From Sulfurovum sp. (GTDB lineage Bacteria > Campylobacterota > Campylobacteria > Campylobacterales > Sulfurovaceae), in NCBI GenBank assembly GCA_020525365.1, contig JAIZOF010000001.1, forward strand, positions 1,139,456 to 1,203,455: DNA of 64,000 bases. The letters are read 5' to 3'. Shown here piece by piece: positions 1 to 59,690 of the stretch. A model generated the notes under the pieces. The model worked only from the letters and a program-made list of their open reading frames with translations. It ran no database searches and was not told the origin of the DNA. The translations under genes and the position numbers were made by a program. Position 1 is the stretch's first letter, and the number at the start of each line of letters is the position of its first letter.

Positions 1-7
1 ACTGTTT

Positions 8-32
8 GTGTGAAAAATGGTGTTTTTCACAC
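8..32. repeat. Perfect 10-bp hairpin
   Basis: Arms GTGTGAAAAA and TTTTTCACAC flank a 5-base loop. No T-run follows on the plus strand. It could be the terminator of a gene to the left of the window, or an operator. Nothing else was recognised in bases 1-109. Confidence 0.45.
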
Positions 33-109
33 TCAAGGGCTAAGGTTTAAAAAAGTAATAAAACCACCAAAAAAGATAAGATCGTACCGAATGTAGCCTA
101 AAATATCAT

Positions 110-22647: not shown

Positions 22648-22720
22648 TCTCTATATACGATCATCAAAAAACAGTAAATTCTCTTTGAGGTTTACTAATT
22701 GCTGATACTGTTTCAAAACA
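22644..22720 (-). repeat. Inverted remnant of methyltransferase 3' end
   Basis: Bases from CTAATCTCTATAT onward are the reverse complement, with scattered mismatches, of the last ~75 bases of the methyltransferase genes at 24172-26437. The TAA that ends the DUF3365 gene is part of this remnant. After 22720 about 70 bases show no similarity. Confidence 0.8.
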
Positions 22721-22788
22721 ATGCAATAAAAAAGCACGATAGACCTATACTAGCATCAAAGTCCATCAATTCCATATTGTAATTAAGT

Positions 22789-23182
22789 TTAATATTCCTT
22801 AATATTTATTTACATATTATTTAATATATTTATATATTTCTTAGTATGGCTACTAATATCATCTAATATAGACTTACGTATTCTTCAATATATCCATATT
22901 TCTTAGTATTATCGTTAGAAAAGTGAGTCTGTTGGCTCATGTTTTATATTTTCCCAGAAATAATCAACATGTTTTTCAAACATTGATTAATATTCCTTAA
23001 TATTTATTTACATATTGGCTAATATATTTATGTATTTCTTAGTATGACTACTAATGTCATCTAATATAGACTTACGTATTCTTCAATATCCATATTTCTT
23101 AGTATTATCGTTAGAAAGAGTGGTCTGTTGGCTCATATTTTATATTTTCCCAGAAATAATCAACATGTTTTTCAAACATTGA
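22789..23182 (-). repeat. Two tandem ~198-bp inverted copies of the tetR-end/promoter segment
   Basis: Copies at 22789-22986 and 22987-23182 are nearly identical (the second lacks 2 bases and has several substitutions). Both are the reverse complement, with divergence in the middle, of the segment running from the end of the TetR gene through the methyltransferase promoter (about 23985-24171). They contain no ORF of note. Bases 23183-23235 are unique sequence. Confidence 0.82.
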
Positions 23183-23235
23183 GACCTGGATGGACTAAAG
23201 AGAGGTGATCCAAGGGGTGTTTGTGAAGTTAAAAA

Positions 23236-23533
23236 TACTAATCTCTATATACGGTCATCCAAAACAGTAAATTCTCTTTGAGGTTTTACTGATTGTTGAT
23301 GCTGTCTCAAGCCTAATATCTCTCTAAAGCCGGCTTCTTTTGCAGTAGTACATTACTTTCAGTCAAATCCATGATGAAAAACCTCTGTTGTCAGAATGAA
23401 AGCTACCATCTTCAATATCCAAATCAGCAATGGCAATAAAACCACATTTCTTAAGCATCTGATAAAATTTTCACAAAGAGTTGATATGTATCCTCTAGAT
23501 GATGAATGAGTCATAGAAGAGATAATCCATCAA
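23236..23533 (-). pseudogene. Decayed inverted copy of the methyltransferase 3' half
   Basis: On the minus strand this stretch matches the C-terminal half of the 201-residue methyltransferase (from the region coding MTIHHLED to the stop). It carries point changes and small indels that break the frame, for example extra bases near 23475 and 23508. It has no start and cannot be translated. It abuts the truncated TetR gene at about 23533, marking a recombination junction. Confidence 0.82.
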
Positions 23534-24054
23534 ATGGCATTAAGCAGAGTGCCCTCTATAACCATTTTCAAAATAAAGATGAGATACTTGCAACACTTAT
23601 CAGTGACCTCACCTCCTCGGCAATAGTGACGTTATTTAGCAACAAAGAGGGTCAAGTGCTCCATAAGCAAGGAAAAGCTCTTTTGATGAGTATTGCCACG
23701 ACCTTTAAGCTTTTAAGCTTTGATAGCCAAAATGAGGCACTTTTTAAGTTACTAATGCAGGAGATATTTAAAAACGACCGTATTAGAGAGATATATAATG
23801 AATATTTTTACCAAGAGAACGTCAAAAAACTCTCTGGTATCTTCTTTTCGATGATGCAAGATGAGATAATATGCTCATCAGACCCCCTATTGCTAGCCAA
23901 TGAGTTTTTTTCACCACTCTTTTTTTACCAGATGCAGATCTCTTTGCTTAAACTAGATAAAAAATCGACCTCTTCTGTGATCTCAATGTTTGAAAAACAT
24001 GTTGATTATTTCTGGGAAAATATAAAACATGAGCCAACAGACTCACTTTTCTAA
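23506..24054 (+). pseudogene. TetR-family regulator lacking its N-terminus
   Basis: The ORF begins inside the inverted methyltransferase remnant; its first ~10 residues are therefore junction sequence. From residue 11 it reads GIKQSALYNHFQNKDEILATL, the end of a TetR helix-turn-helix, followed by a ligand-binding domain that ends DYFWENIKHEPTDSLF. About 30 residues, including helix 1 and most of helix 2 of the DNA-binding domain, are missing, so DNA binding is probably lost. Its last ~100 bases are repeated upstream of methyltransferase copies 2 and 3. It may once have repressed the adjacent methyltransferase gene. Confidence 0.82.
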
Positions 24055-24077
24055 CGATAATACTAAGAAATGTGGAT

Positions 24078-24113
24078 ATATTAAAGAATATATAAGTGTA
24101 TATTCTTTAATAT
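24078..24113 (+). promoter_or_regulatory. 15-bp-arm palindrome in the methyltransferase promoter
   Basis: Arms 24078-24092 and 24099-24113 are perfect reverse complements (ATATTAAAGAATATA) around a 6-base loop. It sits between the TetR stop and the methyltransferase ATG and is repeated at +830 and +1660. It is a good candidate for the operator of the (now broken) TetR protein, or for a terminator of that gene. Confidence 0.5.
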
Positions 24114-24171
24114 TATTAACCAACTAAGAAATATATTAAATAATATGTAAATAAATATTAAGGAATATTAA

Positions 24172-24777
24172 ATGAAAGAGGATATGTTTGCCAATAAATC
24201 AAAAAACTGGGATATGAATTCAAAACGTGTTAGGAATACACGCAATATTACTGAACTAATAGTAAAGAATATAAAACTTAATCACAATATGGAATTGATG
24301 GACTTTGGTGCTGGTACAGGACTATTGAGCTTTCTTATTGCACCGTTTGTCAAAAAAATTACAGCAGTAGATAACTCCCCTTCTATGTTAAGAGAGTTTA
24401 AAAATAAATGTAGTGAGTTTGCCTGTGAAACAGAAATAATAAAAAAAGACCTCTCCGAAGAGGTACTCGAGAGAGTATTTGATGGGATTATCTCTTCTAT
24501 GACTATTCATCATCTAGAGGATACATATCAACTCTTTAGAAAATTTTATCAGATGCTTAAGAAAGGTGGTTTTATTGCCATTGCTGATTTGGATATTGAA
24601 GATGGTAGCTTTCATTCTGACAACAGAGGTGTTTTTCATCATGGATTTGACCGAAAAGTACTTCGTACCATTGCAAAAGAAGCCGGCTTTAGAGAGATAC
24701 AGTTTGAGACAGCATCAACAATCAGTAAACCTCAAAGAGAATTTACTGTTTTTTTGATGACTGCATATAGAGATTAG
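24172..24777 (+). CDS. Class I SAM-dependent methyltransferase, copy 1
   Basis: A 201-residue cytoplasmic methyltransferase. The SAM motif is LMDFGAGTGLLSFLIAPF, followed by ITAVDNSPSMLREF, SSMTIHHLED and a C-terminal segment with FHSDNRGVFHHGFDRK. The protein belongs to the UbiE/small-molecule methyltransferase group; the substrate cannot be named. AAGGA lies 7 bases before the ATG. It follows a TetR-type gene, a common arrangement for inducible detoxification or modification genes. Two further identical copies follow. Confidence 0.85.
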   Translation: MKEDMFANKSKNWDMNSKRVRNTRNITELIVKNIKLNHNMELMDFGAGTGLLSFLIAPFVKKITAVDNSPSMLREFKNKCSEFACETEIIKKDLSEEVLERVFDGIISSMTIHHLEDTYQLFRKFYQMLKKGGFIAIADLDIEDGSFHSDNRGVFHHGFDRKVLRTIAKEAGFREIQFETASTISKPQREFTVFLMTAYRD

Positions 24778-25001
24778 TATTTCTAGATAAAAAATCGACC
24801 TCTTCTGTGATCTCAATGTTTGAAAAACATGTTGATTATTTCTGGGAAAATATAAAACATGAGCCAACAGACTCACTTTTCTAACGATAATACTAAGAAA
24901 TGTGGATATATTAAAGAATATATAAGTGTATATTCTTTAATATTATTAACCAACTAAGAAATATATTAAATAATATGTAAATAAATATTAAGGAATATTA
25001 A

Positions 25002-25607
25002 ATGAAAGAGGATATGTTTGCCAATAAATCAAAAAACTGGGATATGAATTCAAAACGTGTTAGGAATACACGCAATATTACTGAACTAATAGTAAAGAAT
25101 ATAAAACTTAATCACAATATGGAATTGATGGACTTTGGTGCTGGTACAGGACTATTGAGCTTTCTTATTGCACCGTTTGTCAAAAAAATTACAGCAGTAG
25201 ATAACTCCCCTTCTATGTTAAGAGAGTTTAAAAATAAATGTAGTGAGTTTGCCTGTGAAACAGAAATAATAAAAAAAGACCTCTCCGAAGAGGTACTCGA
25301 GAGAGTATTTGATGGGATTATCTCTTCTATGACTATTCATCATCTAGAGGATACATATCAACTCTTTAGAAAATTTTATCAGATGCTTAAGAAAGGTGGT
25401 TTTATTGCCATTGCTGATTTGGATATTGAAGATGGTAGCTTTCATTCTGACAACAGAGGTGTTTTTCATCATGGATTTGACCGAAAAGTACTTCGTACCA
25501 TTGCAAAAGAAGCCGGCTTTAGAGAGATACAGTTTGAGACAGCATCAACAATCAGTAAACCTCAAAGAGAATTTACTGTTTTTTTGATGACTGCATATAG
25601 AGATTAG
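25002..25607 (+). CDS. Class I SAM-dependent methyltransferase, copy 2
   Basis: Identical in protein and DNA sequence to the copy at 24172, with its own copy of the promoter palindrome (24908-24943) and Shine-Dalgarno site. Only the last ~100 bases of the TetR gene precede it. Three promoters plus three genes should raise expression by dosage. Confidence 0.85.
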   Translation: MKEDMFANKSKNWDMNSKRVRNTRNITELIVKNIKLNHNMELMDFGAGTGLLSFLIAPFVKKITAVDNSPSMLREFKNKCSEFACETEIIKKDLSEEVLERVFDGIISSMTIHHLEDTYQLFRKFYQMLKKGGFIAIADLDIEDGSFHSDNRGVFHHGFDRKVLRTIAKEAGFREIQFETASTISKPQREFTVFLMTAYRD

Positions 25608-25831
25608 TATTTCTAGATAAAAAATCGACCTCTTCTGTGATCTCAATGTTTGAAAAACATGTTGATTATTTCTGGGAAAATATAAAACATGAGCCAACAG
25701 ACTCACTTTTCTAACGATAATACTAAGAAATGTGGATATATTAAAGAATATATAAGTGTATATTCTTTAATATTATTAACCAACTAAGAAATATATTAAA
25801 TAATATGTAAATAAATATTAAGGAATATTAA

Positions 25832-26437
25832 ATGAAAGAGGATATGTTTGCCAATAAATCAAAAAACTGGGATATGAATTCAAAACGTGTTAGGAATACA
25901 CGCAATATTACTGAACTAATAGTAAAGAATATAAAACTTAATCACAATATGGAATTGATGGACTTTGGTGCTGGTACAGGACTATTGAGCTTTCTTATTG
26001 CACCGTTTGTCAAAAAAATTACAGCAGTAGATAACTCCCCTTCTATGTTAAGAGAGTTTAAAAATAAATGTAGTGAGTTTGCCTGTGAAACAGAAATAAT
26101 AAAAAAAGACCTCTCCGAAGAGGTACTCGAGAGAGTATTTGATGGGATTATCTCTTCTATGACTATTCATCATCTAGAGGATACATATCAACTCTTTAGA
26201 AAATTTTATCAGATGCTTAAGAAAGGTGGTTTTATTGCCATTGCTGATTTGGATATTGAAGATGGTAGCTTTCATTCTGACAACAGAGGTGTTTTTCATC
26301 ATGGATTTGACCGAAAAGTACTTCGTACCATTGCAAAAGAAGCCGGCTTTAGAGAGATACAGTTTGAGACAGCATCAACAATCAGTAAACCTCAAAGAGA
26401 ATTTACTGTTTTTTTGATGACTGCATATAGAGATTAG
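25832..26437 (+). CDS. Class I SAM-dependent methyltransferase, copy 3
   Basis: Third identical copy, with promoter palindrome at 25738-25773. Its TAG stop overlaps the stop codon of the convergent pyrF gene by three bases: the pyrF TAA is read from the same ATTAG on the other strand. The left border of the locus ends in the same way inside the DUF3365 stop. Confidence 0.85.
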   Translation: MKEDMFANKSKNWDMNSKRVRNTRNITELIVKNIKLNHNMELMDFGAGTGLLSFLIAPFVKKITAVDNSPSMLREFKNKCSEFACETEIIKKDLSEEVLERVFDGIISSMTIHHLEDTYQLFRKFYQMLKKGGFIAIADLDIEDGSFHSDNRGVFHHGFDRKVLRTIAKEAGFREIQFETASTISKPQREFTVFLMTAYRD

Positions 26438-27108
26438 TATATCTCTTCAACTTTGTGTTTTGGGTCATCTGCTTTGTAGACTGGTCTGCCCACTACCGGG
26501 AAATCCACTCCCTCTTGTGCTGCAGCCTGTAGTGTTGCCACACGTTGTTGATCACCCGCATCTTCACCAAAAGGCCTAATACCAGGACAGAGTGTTAAAA
26601 ATGTCTCCGATGTAGCCTGTTTGATTGCCCTGCTCTCAAACGTCGAACAAACCACCCCATCTAATCCACTCTCATAACTCATTTTTGCAAATTGCTTTGC
26701 CTTTTCGTTAATGCTCTTTTCATAAATAGACCCAAAGGTATCTTCATCAAAAGAGGTGAGTGCTGTCACTGCCAATACGATGGGGGGATTCTTATAGGTC
26801 TCAAGGCGCTTCATAACTGCTTGCATTGCCACAGAACCTGCCGAAGCATGGATATTGAACATATCAACTCCCAACTTGGCAATCTCTTCAGCGGCATCTG
26901 CCATGGTATTGGGAATGTCATAAAGTTTAAGATCAAGGAAGATACGAAAATGAGGGTTGATCTCTTTAAGTGCCTCAATCAATAATTTCCCGTCACGAAT
27001 ATAGGTGCGAAAACCTACTTTGATCCAAATATGATAGTGTTTTAGCAGTTTGGCAAGTGCTAAATTTTCTTCTGCAGAAGGCAGGTCAAGTGCAACACAT
27101 AGCTCCAT
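26434..27108 (-). CDS. pyrF: Orotidine 5'-phosphate decarboxylase
   Basis: PyrF decarboxylates OMP to UMP, the last step of de novo pyrimidine synthesis. The motifs LCVALDLPSAEENLALA, FLDLKLYDIPNTMADA (catalytic Lys/Asp) and the phosphate site PGIRPFGEDAGDQQR with VVGRPVYKADDP are intact. The ATG at 27108 follows AGGGG by 7 bases; the TTG at 27114 is an alternative. Length is 224 residues, as in Campylobacterota. Its last codons lie at the edge of the methyltransferase amplification. Confidence 0.94.
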   Translation of the reverse strand: MELCVALDLPSAEENLALAKLLKHYHIWIKVGFRTYIRDGKLLIEALKEINPHFRIFLDLKLYDIPNTMADAAEEIAKLGVDMFNIHASAGSVAMQAVMKRLETYKNPPIVLAVTALTSFDEDTFGSIYEKSINEKAKQFAKMSYESGLDGVVCSTFESRAIKQATSETFLTLCPGIRPFGEDAGDQQRVATLQAAAQEGVDFPVVGRPVYKADDPKHKVEEIY

Positions 27109-49752: not shown

Positions 49753-49796
49753 TAGCGTACGATTTTCCTCTAATACAGTGTTGTATTTTTTTCTGG
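49730..49796 (-). repeat. 20-bp direct repeat with A7 tracts at the frame break
   Basis: The same 20 bases occur at 49730-49749 and 49777-49796, offset by 47 bases. Each holds a run of seven A on the minus (coding) strand. Because 47 is not a multiple of three, the repeated peptide PEKNTTL is read in two different frames. Confidence 0.8.
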
Positions 49797-50189
49797 GGAC
49801 AGTGTCATGTTTTGTATACGATTCCCTTCTGGTGATGGAGATATACTATGATTTTTCTCATTGTATTTATCTAGAATATGAGCCTGCTGAGATACTGATG
49901 GTTTCGATGGATTATAAACAGAATAACCAAACAAAAAGAGTACAAAAAAGAGGGGGAAAATAACAATAAAAGAAATAGCAAGAGTGGCAAACGACATTAG
50001 TCGTTTGCTTCTTACCTGCACTTTCTTGGTTTGCGATCTCCCCTTATGCTTCTCATGATTCTTGTGCTTCTCGTACTTCTCATGCTTCTTGTGTTTTTTG
50101 TATTTTTTGTGCTTCTTGTACTTCTCATGTTTCTCATGTTTCTCGTACTTCTCATGTTTCTTGTGTTTTTTGTGCTTCTTGTGCTTCAT
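49770..50189 (-). CDS. Lys/His-repeat membrane anchor, N-terminal half of L,D-transpeptidase
   Basis: A 139-residue ORF. Residues 2-49 are 16 triplets of the form K-[H/Y]-[K/E], then a basic linker, one membrane helix (SFATLAISFIVIFPLFFVLF) and a periplasmic linker that ends SPEKNTTLY at a TAG. Positive charge before the helix predicts a cytoplasmic N-terminus. The start at 50189 follows GGTAGG; the ATG at 50201 is the alternative. It probably anchors the transpeptidase encoded just downstream in another frame. Confidence 0.7.
   Translation of the reverse strand: MKHKKHKKHKKHEKYEKHEKHEKYKKHKKYKKHKKHEKYEKHKNHEKHKGRSQTKKVQVRSKRLMSFATLAISFIVIFPLFFVLFLFGYSVYNPSKPSVSQQAHILDKYNEKNHSISPSPEGNRIQNMTLSPEKNTTLY
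50043..50186 (-). repeat. 9-bp minisatellite coding K-[H/Y]-[K/E]
   Basis: Sixteen tandem 9-base units (AAR-CAY/TAY-RAG type) inside the anchor ORF. The unit keeps the reading frame, so gain or loss of units changes protein length without breaking it. Confidence 0.85.
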
Positions 50190-50237
50190 TGAACCTACCA
50201 TATTTATTGTATTTTAAAAATCTAGATTAAAAAATAC

Positions 50238-50567: not shown

Positions 50568-50823
50568 AATATCTCAACATTCTCAATAAACAGGGAAGGC
50601 TTAGTGGGCTCAAAATGTTTTACATTACACTAAGAACAAAAGGCAGGAAGTGTGAATGCTTTTTCCTCTGGCAAACCGAAGCCATCACATTAACTAATAT
50701 CTCAACATTCTCAATAAACAGGGAAGGCTTAGTGGGCTCAAAATGTTTTACATTACACTAAGAACAAAAGGCAGGAAGTGTGAATGCTTTTTCCTCTGGC
50801 AAACCGAAGCCATCACATTAACG
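50568..50823 (+). repeat. 128-bp tandem duplication
   Basis: Two identical copies, 50568-50695 and 50696-50823, non-coding as far as can be seen. Each contains the inverted repeat CTTAGTG...CACTAAG. The right end of the second copy is where the large A-B-C rearrangement begins, and ~45 bases of the same unit recur inverted at 55217-55265. Confidence 0.9.
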
Positions 50824-50922
50824 TCCTGAAGAGTATTTGCATCTGGGTGGATACCCAATCAAGCAATTTAGTTAAAAGAATAGAAGTATGCTTGTAGCAT
50901 AATCAATATTAATTTTATTTGA

Positions 50923-51236
50923 ATATTTGACAAGGGTAGAGAGACGCATGCCAAAAAAGAGATTCTCAATGACAATACAGATGTGATAGCCAATAGCCAA
51001 CAAGTAAAACTTCTCAAAAAATATTTTCTGCAATATTTTAATAAAGACGGCAACTTCATCGTTCATAAGATGGAGGAGATTGTAGGAGAGAGTGGGCTTG
51101 AGCTTTCAAAAGAGAGCTACTCTCTTAACTGGCTAGGAAAGAGCTTGCCAGACTCCTTGCCAACGAAAAACCCCACACACTACTAAAAGAACATAAGCCA
51201 AGTCACACCCTCTTTCGTTATTGGTACCTAATTTAG
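50923..51236 (+). pseudogene. N-terminal remnant of a type III DNA methyltransferase (copy A)
   Basis: The frame reads KKYFLQYFNKDGNF, then SKESYSLNWLGKS, and after a +1 shift near 51140 continues ARLLANEKPHTLLKEH. The motif YSLNWLGKS(Y)ARLLANE is characteristic of the N-terminal domain of Mod subunits of type III restriction systems. There is no ATG in frame, there is at least one frameshift, and the catalytic domain (DPPY) is absent. It is a fragment left from a lost restriction-modification system. Recognised from memory of the family, so moderately sure. Confidence 0.6.
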
Positions 51237-51281
51237 AGATATTTACACACAGCATATTTACATACTATAATCTCAAGAAGT

Positions 51282-52436
51282 CTATTTGATCAATGTATTT
51301 TGAAACATTAACGCTTTGGCACACACATATGCACTTGAAAATGCCCACTGAAAGTTGTAACCTCCAAGACGTCCCGTTACATCTAACACCTCACCAATAA
51401 AAAAGAGTCCTTGTTGTTTTTGGCTCTGCATGGTTTTTGCATCAATCTCACTTGTCAATACACCACCCTTGGTTACCTCGGCTTTACTGTAGCCAAAACT
51501 ACCTGCTGGAGCAAATGTATACCGGTGAAGTGTCTGTAGTTGCTGTAACATCTCTAAAGAGATGGCACTTCCAGATATATCTTGTAATCCCCATTGTGAT
51601 AAAAATGCTTTCGTAACACGTTTAGGCAAAGGCAGTAAAGAGGTGAGCTGTTTTTTACTCTGTTTTAATTTTCCCCAATCAAATTTGGGTAAAAAATCAA
51701 TACTAATCTTTCCTTTTTCCCAGTAAAGTGAAGCATCAAGCACTGCTGGTCCACTGATGCCTTTATGGGTAAAAAGTAGTGAGCCTTGACAGCTGTTTCC
51801 ATTGACATCAATGACCACCTCCGTCGAAACACCACTCAGTTCTTTAAAGAAAAACTGCTCTTTTTGTACGGTAAACCCCACCAGTGCGGGTGCAGTCTTC
51901 TGTATAGTGTGTCCAAAATACTCAGCAATCTCATAACCAATCCCACTGGCACCGAGCCTTGGAAAGCTCAGCCCCCCAGAAGCAACAATGACATAAGCCA
52001 CTTTGATACTTCTACGGTTGGTTTTAACATCAAACATCTCACCTTTTTTGCATACCTCTATGACCTGTTCATTGGCAAAGAACTTCTGCTTTTGACTCTC
52101 CTTGAGCAGTATGCCTAAAAGCTCTTTTGAGGTATGTGGACAGAAATACTGACCCTTCTTTCTTAAAACAGGTTCTAGCCCTCGTTGCTGTAACCACTGA
52201 AGCAACCTCTTTTGGTCAAAACATTCCAAGACCGAGGTGATGAAATTCCAATCTCCCAAAAAGAAAGAGGCATCCATCTTCTCATTAGTAATATTGCACT
52301 TTCCCCCTCCAGAAATATCTATTTTTGCGCCCAAATTTGGATTGGCATCCACTACAATGGCACTACATTTTGGAAGCAAAGAGGCGAGCATCAATGCACT
52401 TGCTCCTCCACCTATGATGAGTATTGGTTGTTTCAT
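51282..52436 (-). CDS. HI0933-family FAD-dependent oxidoreductase, copy A
   Basis: A 384-residue flavoprotein (BaiN/HI0933/aminoacetone-oxidase-like family). The dinucleotide motif is ILIIGGGASALMLASLL, followed by the family signature KIDISGGGKCNITN and the C-terminal GEVLDVTGRLGGYNFQWAFSSA. The natural substrate is unknown. The ATG at 52436 (MKQPILIIGGG) lies 7 bases after a TATAAT box, so the mRNA may be leaderless; the ATG at 52445 overlaps the box. Divergent from the lipoprotein gene. Two identical copies exist in B and C. Confidence 0.9.
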   Translation of the reverse strand: MKQPILIIGGGASALMLASLLPKCSAIVVDANPNLGAKIDISGGGKCNITNEKMDASFFLGDWNFITSVLECFDQKRLLQWLQQRGLEPVLRKKGQYFCPHTSKELLGILLKESQKQKFFANEQVIEVCKKGEMFDVKTNRRSIKVAYVIVASGGLSFPRLGASGIGYEIAEYFGHTIQKTAPALVGFTVQKEQFFFKELSGVSTEVVIDVNGNSCQGSLLFTHKGISGPAVLDASLYWEKGKISIDFLPKFDWGKLKQSKKQLTSLLPLPKRVTKAFLSQWGLQDISGSAISLEMLQQLQTLHRYTFAPAGSFGYSKAEVTKGGVLTSEIDAKTMQSQKQQGLFFIGEVLDVTGRLGGYNFQWAFSSAYVCAKALMFQNTLIK

Positions 52437-52443
52437 AGGTATC

Positions 52444-52449
52444 ATTATA
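52444..52449 (-). promoter_or_regulatory. -10 box directly before the flavoprotein start
   Basis: TATAAT on the minus strand, followed after GATACCT by the ATG at 52436. The same element recurs in copies B and C. There is no Shine-Dalgarno site. Confidence 0.5.
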
Positions 52450-52511
52450 TCAAGAATTAGCAGATACCATACAAATCACAATCATTCTTGACTTTTAAAT
52501 TATTTTATTGT

Positions 52512-52517
52512 TATAAT
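52512..52517 (+). promoter_or_regulatory. -10 box of the lipoprotein gene
   Basis: TATAAT 59 bases before the lipoprotein ATG at 52576, followed by GGAAGGA. The same element recurs in copies B (inverted) and C. Confidence 0.45.
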
Positions 52518-52575
52518 ATATATTGTTTTATTTTAAAATATTACAGAAAAAATCACCCAAAGGAAGGATAAAAAT

Positions 52576-53307
52576 ATGAAAATATACTCAATTTCAACCC
52601 TATCGAGTATAGCAATACTGTTAACCATAATTGGTTGTGGCGGAAGTGAAAAATCAACTGTAACAGTAAAAGGAACTGTGCCTGGCACCCTCATTGAAGC
52701 GTTCTGTGAAGATGGGAGCTATCATTCAGTTAACTCCACGGATAACAATACATCAAAACACCCATTTTTACTGACAATTCCAGCAGATACAAATTGCCGG
52801 ATAGTGATGACCACCAATGAAAATGATCCGACAAATAGGGTCATAACACCTATTGGGTTTGTTGACGCTAACGGTACTCAGGATGTAACATTCTCCTTGC
52901 AAGGAGATATTGACCTCGGGCATATCCCTTTGGCACTTCGTCCAAATGATATTACTGATGGCAATGGTGACCATGTCAGCGATACTCCGTATCGTATACA
53001 CCTCAACCAACTACGCGATCATAACCGCTCCTCTGCTTCTTTGCATGTACGACATGGACGGGTTATGGATAGTAATAACAATGGGATTGTTGATGCCTAT
53101 GAAGATTTAGATGGGGATGGCACCATTGATGCCTATGAGGATGATGATCATGATGGTATTCCCAATATGAGAGATGATGATAATCATGATGGTAGACCTG
53201 ACTACATGGAAGGCAGAGATCATAATGGCACTCGTAACAATAATCGTGAAAATAATCGTGAAAATAATCGTGAAAATGTTTTGATGTATTGTTATCCGTG
53301 GAGTTAA
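52576..53307 (+). CDS. Calcium-repeat lipoprotein, copy A (altered C-terminus)
   Basis: A 243-residue lipoprotein: signal peptide with lipobox (LLTIIGCGGS), an Ig-like N-terminal domain of about 115 residues, and a C-terminal string of Asp-rich repeats (DSNNNGIVDAYEDLDGDG, DDDHDGIPNMRDDD) like thrombospondin type 3 calcium sites, then NNRE repeats. From residue 235 (VLMYCYPWS) it reads into the inverted copy B, so its natural end, seen in copy C, is lost. Surface exposed; function unknown. Confidence 0.85.
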   Translation: MKIYSISTLSSIAILLTIIGCGGSEKSTVTVKGTVPGTLIEAFCEDGSYHSVNSTDNNTSKHPFLLTIPADTNCRIVMTTNENDPTNRVITPIGFVDANGTQDVTFSLQGDIDLGHIPLALRPNDITDGNGDHVSDTPYRIHLNQLRDHNRSSASLHVRHGRVMDSNNNGIVDAYEDLDGDGTIDAYEDDDHDGIPNMRDDDNHDGRPDYMEGRDHNGTRNNNRENNRENNRENVLMYCYPWS

Positions 53308-53461
53308 CTGAATGATAGCTCCCATCTTCACAGAACGCTTCAATGAGGGTGCCAGGCACAGTTCCTTTTACTGTTACAGTTGATTTTTCACTTCCGCCAC
53401 AACCAATTATGGTTAACAGTATTGCTATACTCGATAGGGTTGAAATTGAGTATATTTTCAT
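53278..53461 (-). pseudogene. 5' fragment of the lipoprotein gene (copy B)
   Basis: Only the first 61 codons (signal peptide, lipobox and the start of the N-terminal domain) are present, in inverted orientation. At 53278 the frame runs into the antisense strand of copy A and codes low-complexity His/Asp/Tyr-rich sequence. It cannot make a working protein. Confidence 0.85.
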
Positions 53462-53600
53462 ATTTTTATCCTTCCTTTGGGTGATTTTTTCTGTAATATT
53501 TTAAAATAAAACAATATATATTATAACAATAAAATAATTTAAAAGTCAAGAATGATTGTGATTTGTATGGTATCTGCTAATTCTTGATATAATGATACCT

Positions 53601-54755
53601 ATGAAACAACCAATACTCATCATAGGTGGAGGAGCAAGTGCATTGATGCTCGCCTCTTTGCTTCCAAAATGTAGTGCCATTGTAGTGGATGCCAATCCAA
53701 ATTTGGGCGCAAAAATAGATATTTCTGGAGGGGGAAAGTGCAATATTACTAATGAGAAGATGGATGCCTCTTTCTTTTTGGGAGATTGGAATTTCATCAC
53801 CTCGGTCTTGGAATGTTTTGACCAAAAGAGGTTGCTTCAGTGGTTACAGCAACGAGGGCTAGAACCTGTTTTAAGAAAGAAGGGTCAGTATTTCTGTCCA
53901 CATACCTCAAAAGAGCTTTTAGGCATACTGCTCAAGGAGAGTCAAAAGCAGAAGTTCTTTGCCAATGAACAGGTCATAGAGGTATGCAAAAAAGGTGAGA
54001 TGTTTGATGTTAAAACCAACCGTAGAAGTATCAAAGTGGCTTATGTCATTGTTGCTTCTGGGGGGCTGAGCTTTCCAAGGCTCGGTGCCAGTGGGATTGG
54101 TTATGAGATTGCTGAGTATTTTGGACACACTATACAGAAGACTGCACCCGCACTGGTGGGGTTTACCGTACAAAAAGAGCAGTTTTTCTTTAAAGAACTG
54201 AGTGGTGTTTCGACGGAGGTGGTCATTGATGTCAATGGAAACAGCTGTCAAGGCTCACTACTTTTTACCCATAAAGGCATCAGTGGACCAGCAGTGCTTG
54301 ATGCTTCACTTTACTGGGAAAAAGGAAAGATTAGTATTGATTTTTTACCCAAATTTGATTGGGGAAAATTAAAACAGAGTAAAAAACAGCTCACCTCTTT
54401 ACTGCCTTTGCCTAAACGTGTTACGAAAGCATTTTTATCACAATGGGGATTACAAGATATATCTGGAAGTGCCATCTCTTTAGAGATGTTACAGCAACTA
54501 CAGACACTTCACCGGTATACATTTGCTCCAGCAGGTAGTTTTGGCTACAGTAAAGCCGAGGTAACCAAGGGTGGTGTATTGACAAGTGAGATTGATGCAA
54601 AAACCATGCAGAGCCAAAAACAACAAGGACTCTTTTTTATTGGTGAGGTGTTAGATGTAACGGGACGTCTTGGAGGTTACAACTTTCAGTGGGCATTTTC
54701 AAGTGCATATGTGTGTGCCAAAGCGTTAATGTTTCAAAATACATTGATCAAATAG
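53601..54755 (+). CDS. HI0933-family FAD-dependent oxidoreductase, copy B
   Basis: Identical protein to the copy at 51282-52436 but on the plus strand, within inverted copy B. It has the same -10 box and ATG spacing. Nothing in the sequence says which of the three copies is the original, though copy C keeps the complete neighbouring lipoprotein gene. Confidence 0.9.
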   Translation: MKQPILIIGGGASALMLASLLPKCSAIVVDANPNLGAKIDISGGGKCNITNEKMDASFFLGDWNFITSVLECFDQKRLLQWLQQRGLEPVLRKKGQYFCPHTSKELLGILLKESQKQKFFANEQVIEVCKKGEMFDVKTNRRSIKVAYVIVASGGLSFPRLGASGIGYEIAEYFGHTIQKTAPALVGFTVQKEQFFFKELSGVSTEVVIDVNGNSCQGSLLFTHKGISGPAVLDASLYWEKGKISIDFLPKFDWGKLKQSKKQLTSLLPLPKRVTKAFLSQWGLQDISGSAISLEMLQQLQTLHRYTFAPAGSFGYSKAEVTKGGVLTSEIDAKTMQSQKQQGLFFIGEVLDVTGRLGGYNFQWAFSSAYVCAKALMFQNTLIK

Positions 54756-54800
54756 ACTTCTTGAGATTATAGTATGTAAATATGCTGTGTGTAAATATCT

Positions 54801-55114
54801 CTAAATTAGGTACCAATAACGAAAGAGGGTGTGACTTGGCTTATGTTCTTTTAGTAGTGTGTGGGGTTTTTCGTTGGCAAGGAGTCTGGCAAGCTCTTTC
54901 CTAGCCAGTTAAGAGAGTAGCTCTCTTTTGAAAGCTCAAGCCCACTCTCTCCTACAATCTCCTCCATCTTATGAACGATGAAGTTGCCGTCTTTATTAAA
55001 ATATTGCAGAAAATATTTTTTGAGAAGTTTTACTTGTTGGCTATTGGCTATCACATCTGTATTGTCATTGAGAATCTCTTTTTTGGCATGCGTCTCTCTA
55101 CCCTTGTCAAATAT
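54801..55114 (-). pseudogene. Type III DNA methyltransferase remnant (copy B)
   Basis: Inverted identical copy of the fragment at 50923-51236, with the same missing start and frameshift. Confidence 0.55.
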
Positions 55115-55361
55115 TCAAATAAAATTAATATTGATTATGCTACAAGCATACTTCTATTCTTTTAACTAAATTGCTTGATTGGGTATCCACCCAGATGCAA
55201 ATACTCTTCAGGACGTTAATGTGATGGCTTCGGTTTGCCAGAGGAAAAAGCATTCACACTTCCTGTGAAGAGTATTTGCATCTGGGTGGATACCCAATCA
55301 AGCAATTTAGTTAAAAGAATAGAAGTATGCTTGTAGCATAATCAATATTAATTTTATTTGA

Positions 55362-55675
55362 ATATTTGACAAGGGTAGAGAGACGCATGCCAAAAAAGAG
55401 ATTCTCAATGACAATACAGATGTGATAGCCAATAGCCAACAAGTAAAACTTCTCAAAAAATATTTTCTGCAATATTTTAATAAAGACGGCAACTTCATCG
55501 TTCATAAGATGGAGGAGATTGTAGGAGAGAGTGGGCTTGAGCTTTCAAAAGAGAGCTACTCTCTTAACTGGCTAGGAAAGAGCTTGCCAGACTCCTTGCC
55601 AACGAAAAACCCCACACACTACTAAAAGAACATAAGCCAAGTCACACCCTCTTTCGTTATTGGTACCTAATTTAG
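55362..55675 (+). pseudogene. Type III DNA methyltransferase remnant (copy C)
   Basis: Direct identical copy of the fragment at 50923-51236, with the same missing start and frameshift. Confidence 0.55.
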
Positions 55676-55720
55676 AGATATTTACACACAGCATATTTAC
55701 ATACTATAATCTCAAGAAGT

Positions 55721-56875
55721 CTATTTGATCAATGTATTTTGAAACATTAACGCTTTGGCACACACATATGCACTTGAAAATGCCCACTGAAAGTTGTAAC
55801 CTCCAAGACGTCCCGTTACATCTAACACCTCACCAATAAAAAAGAGTCCTTGTTGTTTTTGGCTCTGCATGGTTTTTGCATCAATCTCACTTGTCAATAC
55901 ACCACCCTTGGTTACCTCGGCTTTACTGTAGCCAAAACTACCTGCTGGAGCAAATGTATACCGGTGAAGTGTCTGTAGTTGCTGTAACATCTCTAAAGAG
56001 ATGGCACTTCCAGATATATCTTGTAATCCCCATTGTGATAAAAATGCTTTCGTAACACGTTTAGGCAAAGGCAGTAAAGAGGTGAGCTGTTTTTTACTCT
56101 GTTTTAATTTTCCCCAATCAAATTTGGGTAAAAAATCAATACTAATCTTTCCTTTTTCCCAGTAAAGTGAAGCATCAAGCACTGCTGGTCCACTGATGCC
56201 TTTATGGGTAAAAAGTAGTGAGCCTTGACAGCTGTTTCCATTGACATCAATGACCACCTCCGTCGAAACACCACTCAGTTCTTTAAAGAAAAACTGCTCT
56301 TTTTGTACGGTAAACCCCACCAGTGCGGGTGCAGTCTTCTGTATAGTGTGTCCAAAATACTCAGCAATCTCATAACCAATCCCACTGGCACCGAGCCTTG
56401 GAAAGCTCAGCCCCCCAGAAGCAACAATGACATAAGCCACTTTGATACTTCTACGGTTGGTTTTAACATCAAACATCTCACCTTTTTTGCATACCTCTAT
56501 GACCTGTTCATTGGCAAAGAACTTCTGCTTTTGACTCTCCTTGAGCAGTATGCCTAAAAGCTCTTTTGAGGTATGTGGACAGAAATACTGACCCTTCTTT
56601 CTTAAAACAGGTTCTAGCCCTCGTTGCTGTAACCACTGAAGCAACCTCTTTTGGTCAAAACATTCCAAGACCGAGGTGATGAAATTCCAATCTCCCAAAA
56701 AGAAAGAGGCATCCATCTTCTCATTAGTAATATTGCACTTTCCCCCTCCAGAAATATCTATTTTTGCGCCCAAATTTGGATTGGCATCCACTACAATGGC
56801 ACTACATTTTGGAAGCAAAGAGGCGAGCATCAATGCACTTGCTCCTCCACCTATGATGAGTATTGGTTGTTTCAT
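55721..56875 (-). CDS. HI0933-family FAD-dependent oxidoreductase, copy C
   Basis: Third identical 384-residue flavoprotein copy, divergent from the complete lipoprotein gene at 57015. It has the same TATAAT-7 bases-ATG start arrangement. Confidence 0.9.
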   Translation of the reverse strand: MKQPILIIGGGASALMLASLLPKCSAIVVDANPNLGAKIDISGGGKCNITNEKMDASFFLGDWNFITSVLECFDQKRLLQWLQQRGLEPVLRKKGQYFCPHTSKELLGILLKESQKQKFFANEQVIEVCKKGEMFDVKTNRRSIKVAYVIVASGGLSFPRLGASGIGYEIAEYFGHTIQKTAPALVGFTVQKEQFFFKELSGVSTEVVIDVNGNSCQGSLLFTHKGISGPAVLDASLYWEKGKISIDFLPKFDWGKLKQSKKQLTSLLPLPKRVTKAFLSQWGLQDISGSAISLEMLQQLQTLHRYTFAPAGSFGYSKAEVTKGGVLTSEIDAKTMQSQKQQGLFFIGEVLDVTGRLGGYNFQWAFSSAYVCAKALMFQNTLIK

Positions 56876-57014
56876 AGGTATCATTATATCAAGAATTAGC
56901 AGATACCATACAAATCACAATCATTCTTGACTTTTAAATTATTTTATTGTTATAATATATATTGTTTTATTTTAAAATATTACAGAAAAAATCACCCAAA
57001 GGAAGGATAAAAAT

Positions 57015-57743
57015 ATGAAAATATACTCAATTTCAACCCTATCGAGTATAGCAATACTGTTAACCATAATTGGTTGTGGCGGAAGTGAAAAATCAACTGT
57101 AACAGTAAAAGGAACTGTGCCTGGCACCCTCATTGAAGCGTTCTGTGAAGATGGGAGCTATCATTCAGTTAACTCCACGGATAACAATACATCAAAACAC
57201 CCATTTTTACTGACAATTCCAGCAGATACAAATTGCCGGATAGTGATGACCACCAATGAAAATGATCCGACAAATAGGGTCATAACACCTATTGGGTTTG
57301 TTGACGCTAACGGTACTCAGGATGTAACATTCTCCTTGCAAGGAGATATTGACCTCGGGCATATCCCTTTGGCACTTCGTCCAAATGATATTACTGATGG
57401 CAATGGTGACCATGTCAGCGATACTCCGTATCGTATACACCTCAACCAACTACGCGATCATAACCGCTCCTCTGCTTCTTTGCATGTACGACATGGACGG
57501 GTTATGGATAGTAATAACAATGGGATTGTTGATGCCTATGAAGATTTAGATGGGGATGGCACCATTGATGCCTATGAGGATGATGATCATGATGGTATTC
57601 CCAATATGAGAGATGATGATAATCATGATGGTAGACCTGACTACATGGAAGGCAGAGATCATAATGGCACTCGTAACAATAATCGTGAAAATAATCGTGA
57701 AAATAATCGTGAAAATCATGGTGGCAAACCACAAAGGTGGTAA
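57015..57743 (+). CDS. Calcium-repeat lipoprotein, complete copy C
   Basis: A 242-residue lipoprotein identical to copy A up to residue 234, but ending ENHGGKPQRW, presumably the natural end. Lipobox at LLTIIGCGGS; the N-terminal domain (TVTVKGTVPGTLIEAFCEDG) resembles carboxypeptidase-regulatory or Ig-like beta domains. The C-terminal Asp-rich repeats (DGDGTIDAYEDDDHDGIPN) should bind calcium. It is convergent with a nine-haem cytochrome, with which it may share the outer surface. Confidence 0.88.
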   Translation: MKIYSISTLSSIAILLTIIGCGGSEKSTVTVKGTVPGTLIEAFCEDGSYHSVNSTDNNTSKHPFLLTIPADTNCRIVMTTNENDPTNRVITPIGFVDANGTQDVTFSLQGDIDLGHIPLALRPNDITDGNGDHVSDTPYRIHLNQLRDHNRSSASLHVRHGRVMDSNNNGIVDAYEDLDGDGTIDAYEDDDHDGIPNMRDDDNHDGRPDYMEGRDHNGTRNNNRENNRENNRENHGGKPQRW

Positions 57744-57950: not shown

Positions 57951-59690
57951 TCATTGGAGCTCATGGTCATCATTATCAACTTCTGGACCATTATGGCAAT
58001 CATAGCAACTAATCTTATGACCTTTTGAAAAATTCTTTTGACCCCATTCGGTTGAGAAAGAGCGTGCTGTCCATGTCTTGGAGAGTACCGTACCTCGATA
58101 GTTCTGACCATGACATACTTTGCACTGTGCCACATTTCTTTCTGCAGCATCTTCATGACGCCTAACCCAGTTTTGTCCTACAGGATGCATACCATGCGGT
58201 CCTCCTTTGACGGTATTAGGCACACTGGCATGACAAGCAGTGCACTCACCAATAGTACCCGCATGCCCTTGAATACCTTTACTTAATAGGTTGTCCGCAT
58301 TATGTGCCGGATAGATTGCATGAGGCGATCCATGACATGCTTCACACTGCAAGTTGCCGTGCCCTTTACTGAAACGATAGAGGCTAACTCCTTGTGTAGG
58401 GGTGTTTGGCATAGTTGCAAACTTACTGTTGACTACAGCCCTAAGTGTGCCATTGGTAAGTACTGCAGAGGTTTCTCTAACAGGATTACCATTAGCATTA
58501 GTGTGGTGACACGCTTGACAGTTTGGTACATCTAGCCATCCTTTTCTGGTACGATCACCTACCGCATGCATATCCCCATGACAACTTTGACACTGCATAG
58601 CATTATTTCCGTTACCATCTTTAGCATCACCCATTGCACCCCTGAGACATTTGGTCTGAGAGCCTGGATGGCAAGCATAACAGGCATTTCGATTTTGACT
58701 ATCACCAAGTAACATGTTGTGATTGGTAGGATCCTTAACCAATGCATGCTTGGCATGAATAGCAGCAGTAAAGGCTTTAATATTTACACCAGGTTCAAAC
58801 CCAATACCAACATTAGGCAATGCATTTGATTTGTGACATGCTGCACAAAGAACTGGTGTACCATTATTGGCAGTTGCTTCAAGTCCTCTAGTATGATAGT
58901 TATACCCTTTTTTTCGAAGCAAACCAATATTGTTCGATACAGCATTTGGTATCTTCTGGTCGTGTAGACGTAGAATATTTAACTTAAAATCCTTTTCTGG
59001 ATTGGCATTATTCACCCACCCTTTTGTGGGTCTTGCATCATTAAGTGTACTGTTGCTGGCATGACAACGTTTGCAATCGAGTTCATCACTCACAGGAAGT
59101 ACGGTCTTGGTGGTTGCGAGTATATTGCCTCGTGTATCTTTTGCTACAACTTTAACCAGCGGATAGTAATTTTTACTTCCATCATCATTATATGGAGTTA
59201 TAGGAATACCTTCTGCCTCCCACCAGCCATGTGTAGCATTAAAAGTAAGTGCCTGAGGTCCCCTGCTTGCTGTTTTGGTGCCAGTAAGTCCTGTATCTGC
59301 TGTCAAGTTAGAATTTGGAAATAGCTTATTGCTAAAGTTCCAAAAGTTTGTTTTGGTACTACTGCTGGTATTGATCTTGCCATCAGTACCTGTGGTAGAT
59401 TCAAAAGTAATGGTCACGCCCCTAGTAACGAGATCTCCATTTTTCTTTTTTAGTTGAGCGTGTAGATTGTTGTAGGGAGGCAAAATAGAAAATACTGAAA
59501 AGTCATTTCCATCCATGCAGTGCATACCCAAATCATTCCACGCAGTTAAGACATAGTTAGATGAAGATTTACCAGCAGTTAAGACATAGTTAGATGAAGA
59601 TGTACCAAATGAGTCATTCTTATCGCTACTTCCGCATCCAGCCATCAAAACAGCAATCATTAGTCCTAAAATCAGCATATGTATTTTCAT
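57951..59690 (-). CDS. Nine-haem c-type cytochrome lipoprotein
   Basis: A 579-residue lipoprotein with lipobox (AVLMAGCGSSDK). An N-terminal beta-rich domain of about 200 residues (WNDLGMHCMDGNDFSVFSIL) is followed by nine CxxCH motifs: CKRCH, CAACH, CYACH, CQSCH, CQACH, CEACH, CTACH, CKVCH, CYDCH. It is likely to carry electrons in the periplasm or at the outer membrane; a catalytic role is possible because many extra histidines are present. GGAGAG precedes the ATG. A 33-base tandem repeat near the start gives the duplicated peptide SSSNYVLTA. Confidence 0.92.
   Translation of the reverse strand: MKIHMLILGLMIAVLMAGCGSSDKNDSFGTSSSNYVLTAGKSSSNYVLTAWNDLGMHCMDGNDFSVFSILPPYNNLHAQLKKKNGDLVTRGVTITFESTTGTDGKINTSSSTKTNFWNFSNKLFPNSNLTADTGLTGTKTASRGPQALTFNATHGWWEAEGIPITPYNDDGSKNYYPLVKVVAKDTRGNILATTKTVLPVSDELDCKRCHASNSTLNDARPTKGWVNNANPEKDFKLNILRLHDQKIPNAVSNNIGLLRKKGYNYHTRGLEATANNGTPVLCAACHKSNALPNVGIGFEPGVNIKAFTAAIHAKHALVKDPTNHNMLLGDSQNRNACYACHPGSQTKCLRGAMGDAKDGNGNNAMQCQSCHGDMHAVGDRTRKGWLDVPNCQACHHTNANGNPVRETSAVLTNGTLRAVVNSKFATMPNTPTQGVSLYRFSKGHGNLQCEACHGSPHAIYPAHNADNLLSKGIQGHAGTIGECTACHASVPNTVKGGPHGMHPVGQNWVRRHEDAAERNVAQCKVCHGQNYRGTVLSKTWTARSFSTEWGQKNFSKGHKISCYDCHNGPEVDNDDHELQ
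59542..59607 (-). repeat. 33-bp tandem duplication in the cytochrome gene
   Basis: Two copies offset by 33 bases, in frame, giving SSSNYVLTAGK then SSSNYVLTAW directly after the lipidated N-terminus. It lengthens the linker only. Confidence 0.85.

Follow-up and report, generated by a model that had tools for sequence, protein, structure and literature searches.

The window analysed here is a 64,000-nt stretch of contig JAIZOF010000001.1 from Sulfurovum sp. (Campylobacterota), and at positions 50827-57716 it contains a direct-inverted-direct triplication of a gene pair encoding an HI0933-like flavoprotein and a lipoprotein. This is probably a genuine and recent tandem inversion duplication (TID), arising from a snap-back at the hairpin of a fossil origin of transfer (oriT) combined with a second switch at low homology, and tolerated by a genome without SbcCD. 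Rearrangements of this kind have been described before in laboratory bacteria, in yeast and in human disease; the link to the hairpin is the new part.

Structure of the triplication

Copy A (50827-53277, forward) is identical to the direct copy C (55266-57716, forward) across 2,451 nt, with the identity stopping sharply at either end, and copy B (53277-55265, reverse strand) is a perfect reverse complement of 50772-52760, extending 55 nt beyond A to the left and stopping 517 nt short of the end of A to the right. The resulting inverted arms are 100% identical, both between 50772-52760 and 53277-55265 (1,989 nt, spacer 516 nt) and between 53277-55210 and 55266-57199 (1,934 nt, spacer 55 nt), and perfect repeats of such length cannot have arisen by chance. 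Both unique flanks are retained within a single contig of 1,458,354 bp. Of the features by which a TID is recognised, the assembly shows direct-inverted-direct copies, intact unique flanks and two novel inversion junctions with short or no homology, and with its inverted central copy and asymmetric junctions the structure fits the definition of a TID, or duplication-inverted triplication-duplication (DUP-TRP(INV)-DUP).

At the A-to-B junction (J1, 53277/53278) there is 1 bp of homology (the T at 53277), and the inverted arms are separated by the 516-nt spacer. At the B-to-C junction (J2, 55265/55266) the strict homology is 0 bp, and the 55-nt spacer is nearly the whole of the oriT hairpin. When J2 is aligned, TCCTG of B matches TCCTG at 50824-50828 with an extra TG (a 2-nt offset), giving a 5-bp CAGGA/TCCTG stem as a candidate foldback repeat; no clear repeat was seen at J1. 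Homology of 5 bp is attained by approximately 5% of random junctions, and junction homology was dropped as sole evidence, being no better than chance. An earlier note on this DNA had described the A-B-C layout, the identity of the copies, the 0-1 bp junction homologies and the TID shape, all of which were confirmed at base resolution, but it had overlooked the left overrun of B, a nearby tandem duplication and the hairpin underlying the junction.

This tandem duplication (50568-50822, forward) consists of two perfect 127-nt units, 50568-50694 and 50696-50822, joined by a 1-nt filler, and ends 4 nt ahead of the sequence that opens C (50827). A possible explanation is that the tandem duplication and the triplication are one event, in which a single double-strand break at 50822/50827, with loss of GTCC, was filled by a 4,571-bp locally templated insert composed of t, the 127-nt unit X, 50823-53277 and the reverse complement of 52760-50772. 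In the ancestral sequence, only 4 nt separate the point where the first X unit ends from that where C begins, as expected of the two ends of one break. However, an independent slippage at the same hairpin could account for the tandem duplication, and the order of events rests on one genome; the single-break explanation is considered improbable.

The single-copy state is the ancestral one. A flavoprotein match was found in all 78 genomes of the genus search, and because none of the 103 loci drawn from relatives has more than one close flavoprotein gene, the triplication is derived and arose in the lineage of the window. In the two closest loci (L005 and L133, which are probably from one and the same genome), the genes occur in single copy in the order cyt-lipo-flav-ldt-abh-murF, i.e. 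cytochrome, lipoprotein, flavoprotein, transpeptidase, hydrolase and murF, with both flanks of the window represented. Given the zero divergence between copies, the triplication must be recent, homogenised or an artefact.

A probable fossil transfer origin at the breakpoints

The hairpin at 50772-50828 (reverse strand, outermost base pair 50772:50828) resembles oriTs of the MOBP/IncP type, and its nic is predicted to fall between 50772 and 50771 of the minus strand (5'-CTTCCTG^CC). Related DNA (82-88% identity) for the region around 50765-50863 occurs in three other genomes, and the alignment reveals a conserved non-coding element; the hairpin itself is conserved in six elements from three other genomes (G053, G080 and G082). 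The common fold of the seven aligned copies contains 26 pairs, 20 of them within the hairpin of the window and 8 changed on both sides in a compensatory manner, while the CAGGA/TCCTG foot is invariant. The folding energy of the hairpin is among the best 1.3-2.7% of local windows.

Beside the element, three copies in two genomes carry a divergent gene with a weak match to DUF5338 (E 1.3e-4 and 7.7e-4 in the two that were scanned, neither reaching the gathering score), a Pfam family that includes TraK. Other neighbouring genes of the element vary, and encode SIR2-like and Thoeris-type TIR proteins and a methyltransferase. One island with the same kind of element (L149) carries an integrase gene, a PF03432 relaxase and, as read from translations, TrbJ-, TrbL- and TraK-like genes. 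A further island (L150, in genome G012) carries a type III restriction methyltransferase (mod) gene in addition to a relaxase and a TraK-like gene, and its mod gene resembles a 5' mod remnant at 50875-51196 (forward) of the window, which is present in A, B and C and shares 84% DNA identity with the L129/L150 mod region (76% at the peptide level over 74 aa). The MOBP nick consensus, (C/T)ATCCTG(C/T) (PMC3772185), is matched exactly by the elements of L149 and L152 (CATCCTG^CC), whereas the copy in the window and those of L125-L128 (TTCCTG^CC) are one base off (CTTCCTGC). There was no match to a PF03432 relaxase in the genome of the window and no TraK-like gene in the window, as expected if only a remnant survives.

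Taken together, these comparisons identify the hairpin from sequence as a probable oriT-type element with a predicted nick site, and the window is best read as holding the fossil of a mobilizable island, reduced to the oriT and a scrap of mod cargo. The gene set of L149 is similar to that of the IncP islands, or MOBP integrative mobilizable elements (PMC5704250), in its MobP relaxase, TraK-like, TrbJ/TrbL-like and integrase genes, whereas the window retains only the oriT and the mod fragment. The oriT fossil had no match in the plasmid collection. A transposase remnant at 50765-50863 was rejected, as the homologous elements adjoin TraK-like and defence genes rather than transposases, and matches to Rfam RNA families were all sub-threshold and caused by the palindrome or by low complexity. 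Across L125, L126, L128 and L129, an oriT-type element or TraK-like neighbour adjoins differing defence-type genes (SIR2-like, methyltransferase, Thoeris TIR and type III restriction-modification), a pattern suggestive of a Campylobacterota family of mobilizable islands with defence cargo.

The location of the breakpoints inside a decayed mobile island could point to a mobile element acting through transposition or site-specific recombination. However, the copied unit is composed mostly of ordinary chromosomal genes, with no transposase gene and no mobility function, there are no insertion-type direct repeats flanking the copies, and the junctions have only 0-1 bp of homology, making this origin very improbable.

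The left limit of B, 50772, belongs to the outermost pair of the hairpin and is also the base immediately 5' of the predicted nick. C begins at 50827, no more than two bases from the opposite foot, and the tandem duplication stops at 50822, which places three of the breakpoints at the foot of a single hairpin. Because of this coincidence, and because the spacer is nearly all hairpin, J2 is interpreted as a turn-around at the hairpin. It could alternatively have been initiated by a MOBP relaxase nicking at the fossil nic (50772^50771), with the free 3'-OH at ...CTTCCTG priming the inverted copy, an account that would draw on the MOBP nick consensus (PMC3772185) and place the end of B precisely where it is found. 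The nic and the hairpin foot coincide by design, however, which means that the end of B is equally predicted by the hairpin without any nick, and the nick site departs from the consensus by one base. Since the genome has no PF03432 relaxase match and the island is decayed (its mod cargo included) while the triplication is fresh, with the window also lacking a TraK-like gene, the hairpin-only account is preferred, and relaxase initiation is regarded as distinctly improbable.

Proposed mechanism

Under the hairpin-only account, a strand being copied leftward during replication or repair would pass the fossil oriT hairpin and finish at its foot at 50772. The strand end would then fold back on the CAGGA/TCCTG stem and extend rightward from 50827, generating J2, and a second and nearly homology-free switch (53277 to 52760), either before or after the foldback, would put synthesis back on track with both flanks kept, generating J1. 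Displacement of a rightward strand at 50822 by the same hairpin may have produced the 127-nt tandem duplication, whether as part of this event or separately. In a cell lacking SbcCD, the long palindrome (1,934-nt arms interrupted by the 55-nt spacer) would escape cleavage and persist. The foldback route to TIDs is set out in PMC4689423; in Escherichia coli, inverted duplications at an interrupted palindrome of 85 bp are kept in check by SbcCD and by RecA (PMC3315005), and small inverted triplications persist once sbcC or sbcD is lost (PMC13334657).

Several observations weigh against this mechanism. There are 39 hairpins of like closure and stability within 11.4 kb, and the match between hairpin and breakpoints is therefore suggestive rather than unique. 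A perfect foldback predicts that C would start at 50829 rather than at the observed 50827, leaving the 2-nt TG excess, the 5-bp match at J2 is, taken alone, within the reach of random junctions, and the homology at J1 is only 1 bp. The spontaneous inverted duplication in PMC3315005 also needed loss of RecA, and most sampled relatives lack SbcCD yet have no such triplication. Finally, a single assembly underlies both the structure and the copy number.

Repair genes and rearrangement load

The suggestion in the earlier note that the genome is prone to template switching or lacks a repair function has support, with SbcC, SbcD, MutS1-like and MutL proteins not found and with inverted duplications commoner than in two control genomes. 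There were no matches to SbcC or SbcD in the genome of the window; most relatives tested also lacked both, and the absence is accordingly permissive rather than explanatory. The MutS1-like protein of approximately 1,000 aa that is found in most relatives was likewise missing from this genome, which has two MutS2-like loci, one of them a partial duplicate. MutL had no match at the cut-off in any of 13 genomes, relatives included. Loss of RecG, also raised in that note, was rejected, as RecG is present.

Seventeen evenly spaced stretches of the genome (340 kb) yielded three local inverted repeats of at least 100 bp, one of them at 98% identity or more, compared with 0 and 1 such repeats, neither at this identity, in two complete relatives sampled in the same way (400 kb each). 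These are small counts from a sample of about one third of the chromosome, and the 17-stretch figure is the only unbiased one, because the finding originated in the window and its flanks.

Further rearrangements were found in this genome. In the adjacent 20 kb is a near-perfect palindrome of 2,415 nt (L143:17155-19569, G000:C1:1220610-1223024) with arms of 1,206 nt and a 3-nt centre (ATGCAT-CAA-ATGCAT), which duplicates a 236-aa gene in inverted orientation, with a third copy, 85% diverged, nearby. The second amplified locus described within the window does exist (3 x 830 bp from 23953): the region 22666-26442 contains three perfect 830-bp tandem copies of a methyltransferase-like gene and, just upstream, diverged inverted relatives (83-98%), and is perhaps an older inverted duplication that was amplified later. 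A perfect dispersed copy of 2,327 bp, covering most of mutS2 and part of murC, is present at L211:1782-4108 and L210:14039-16365 (G000:C1:518782-521108 and 1399039-1401365), with a decayed inverted copy (92%) at 1386531-1388823. Window positions 1-82 together with L144:18313-20000 form with G000:C1:1395025-1396794 a perfect inverted dispersed duplication of 1,770 bp carrying a beta-lactamase-like lipoprotein gene.

The main competing explanation for the triplication is an assembly or library artefact, in which chimeric fold-back molecules, from multiple displacement amplification or long-read fold-back, entered the contig while the chromosome remains single-copy. Snap-back at hairpins generates fold-back artefacts in vitro too, all copies are 100% identical, and the genome contains several further perfect duplications, including the 2.4-kb palindrome. 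In addition, the second contig of the assembly (L142, G000:C2, 7,717 bp) is partly masked, rich in dinucleotide repeats and eukaryotic-looking; it is probably a contaminant, and the assembly was thus probably made from a mixed sample. However, both unique flanks are kept in one contig, chimeras vary by molecule such that a consensus with two junctions would require many identical ones, and diverged inverted duplications (81-94%) elsewhere indicate that such events have occurred in the lineage over evolutionary time. An artefact is therefore considered unlikely, if somewhat less so than the other alternatives, and a snap-back at the oriT hairpin remains the favoured origin.

Genes of the triplicated unit and its surroundings

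The gene content given in the earlier note, with three flavoprotein genes, two lipoprotein genes with different ends and one fragment, was borne out by the translations. The three copies of the HI0933-like flavin adenine dinucleotide-dependent oxidoreductase gene, at 51282-52445 in A (reverse; Pfam PF03486, 3.4e-66), 53592-54755 in B (forward) and 55721-56884 in C (reverse), encode identical proteins of 387 aa. The lipoprotein gene of A (52576-53307, forward, 243 aa) had its 3' end replaced by J1, and that of C (57015-57743, forward, 242 aa) runs on into the unique right flank, while in B a chimeric lipoprotein fragment of 132 aa (53063-53461, reverse) crosses J1 into the antisense of A. With three identical flavoprotein genes and with lipoprotein genes left truncated or fused, the effect is probably neutral or a change in dosage.

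Compared with relatives, the multihaem cytochrome gene at 57951-59690 is inverted relative to the lipoprotein gene; in relatives, the two genes lie on the same strand or are fused into one 746-aa protein (L133). On this comparison, the orientation of the cytochrome gene is a putative further local inversion at the triplication locus. Adjoining the triplication on the other side, at 49770-50201, is a gene for a small protein with a KHKKHEKYEKHEK repeat array of 9-bp coding units.

Comparison with known systems

Inverted triplications have mostly been studied under laboratory selection or in human disease, and a natural bacterial case whose junctions are defined to the base, and include one that falls on a recognisable, conserved hairpin, provides a concrete substrate for testing how they initiate. 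A broader and rather tentative possibility is that leftover oriT hairpins of conjugative or mobilizable islands behave as fragile sites of the chromosome, from which inverted duplications and triplications arise when the bacterium lacks SbcCD; if so, the decay of mobile elements would leave rearrangement hotspots behind. The present case also suggests that the common absence of SbcCD in these Campylobacterota permits long palindromes to persist.

The Salmonella lac TID (Kugelberg et al. 2010), as far as it is described in PMC4689423, shares the direct-inverted-direct order, the retained flanks, the asymmetric junctions and the foldback at short interrupted inverted repeats. In contrast to what is described there, the present case is from a natural, unselected genome, is approximately 2 kb in size, and has one junction on a conserved oriT hairpin and the other with only 1 bp of homology. 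The small inverted triplications that become stable in E. coli lacking sbcC or sbcD (PMC13334657) share the duplication-inversion-duplication (DUP/INV/DUP) arrangement and short spacers, but average approximately 150 bp per unit with approximately 30-bp spacers and 6-bp junctions, compared with units of 2.0-2.5 kb and spacers of 516 and 55 nt here. The inverted triplications attributed in yeast to origin-dependent inverted-repeat amplification (ODIRA; PMC4689423) are likewise interstitial, keep the distal sequence and have an interrupted inverted repeat at a junction; however, ODIRA depends on an origin within the amplified unit and on inverted repeats already in place at each junction, whereas one junction here has no clear repeat and no origin was identified in the unit (HI0933-like, lipoprotein and mod-fragment genes), although no search aimed at one was made. 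In E. coli sbcDC recA (PMC3315005), an interrupted palindrome of tens of bp similarly seeds an inverted duplication when SbcCD is missing, but the product is a large inverted chromosome duplication rather than a small internal triplication with both flanks kept.

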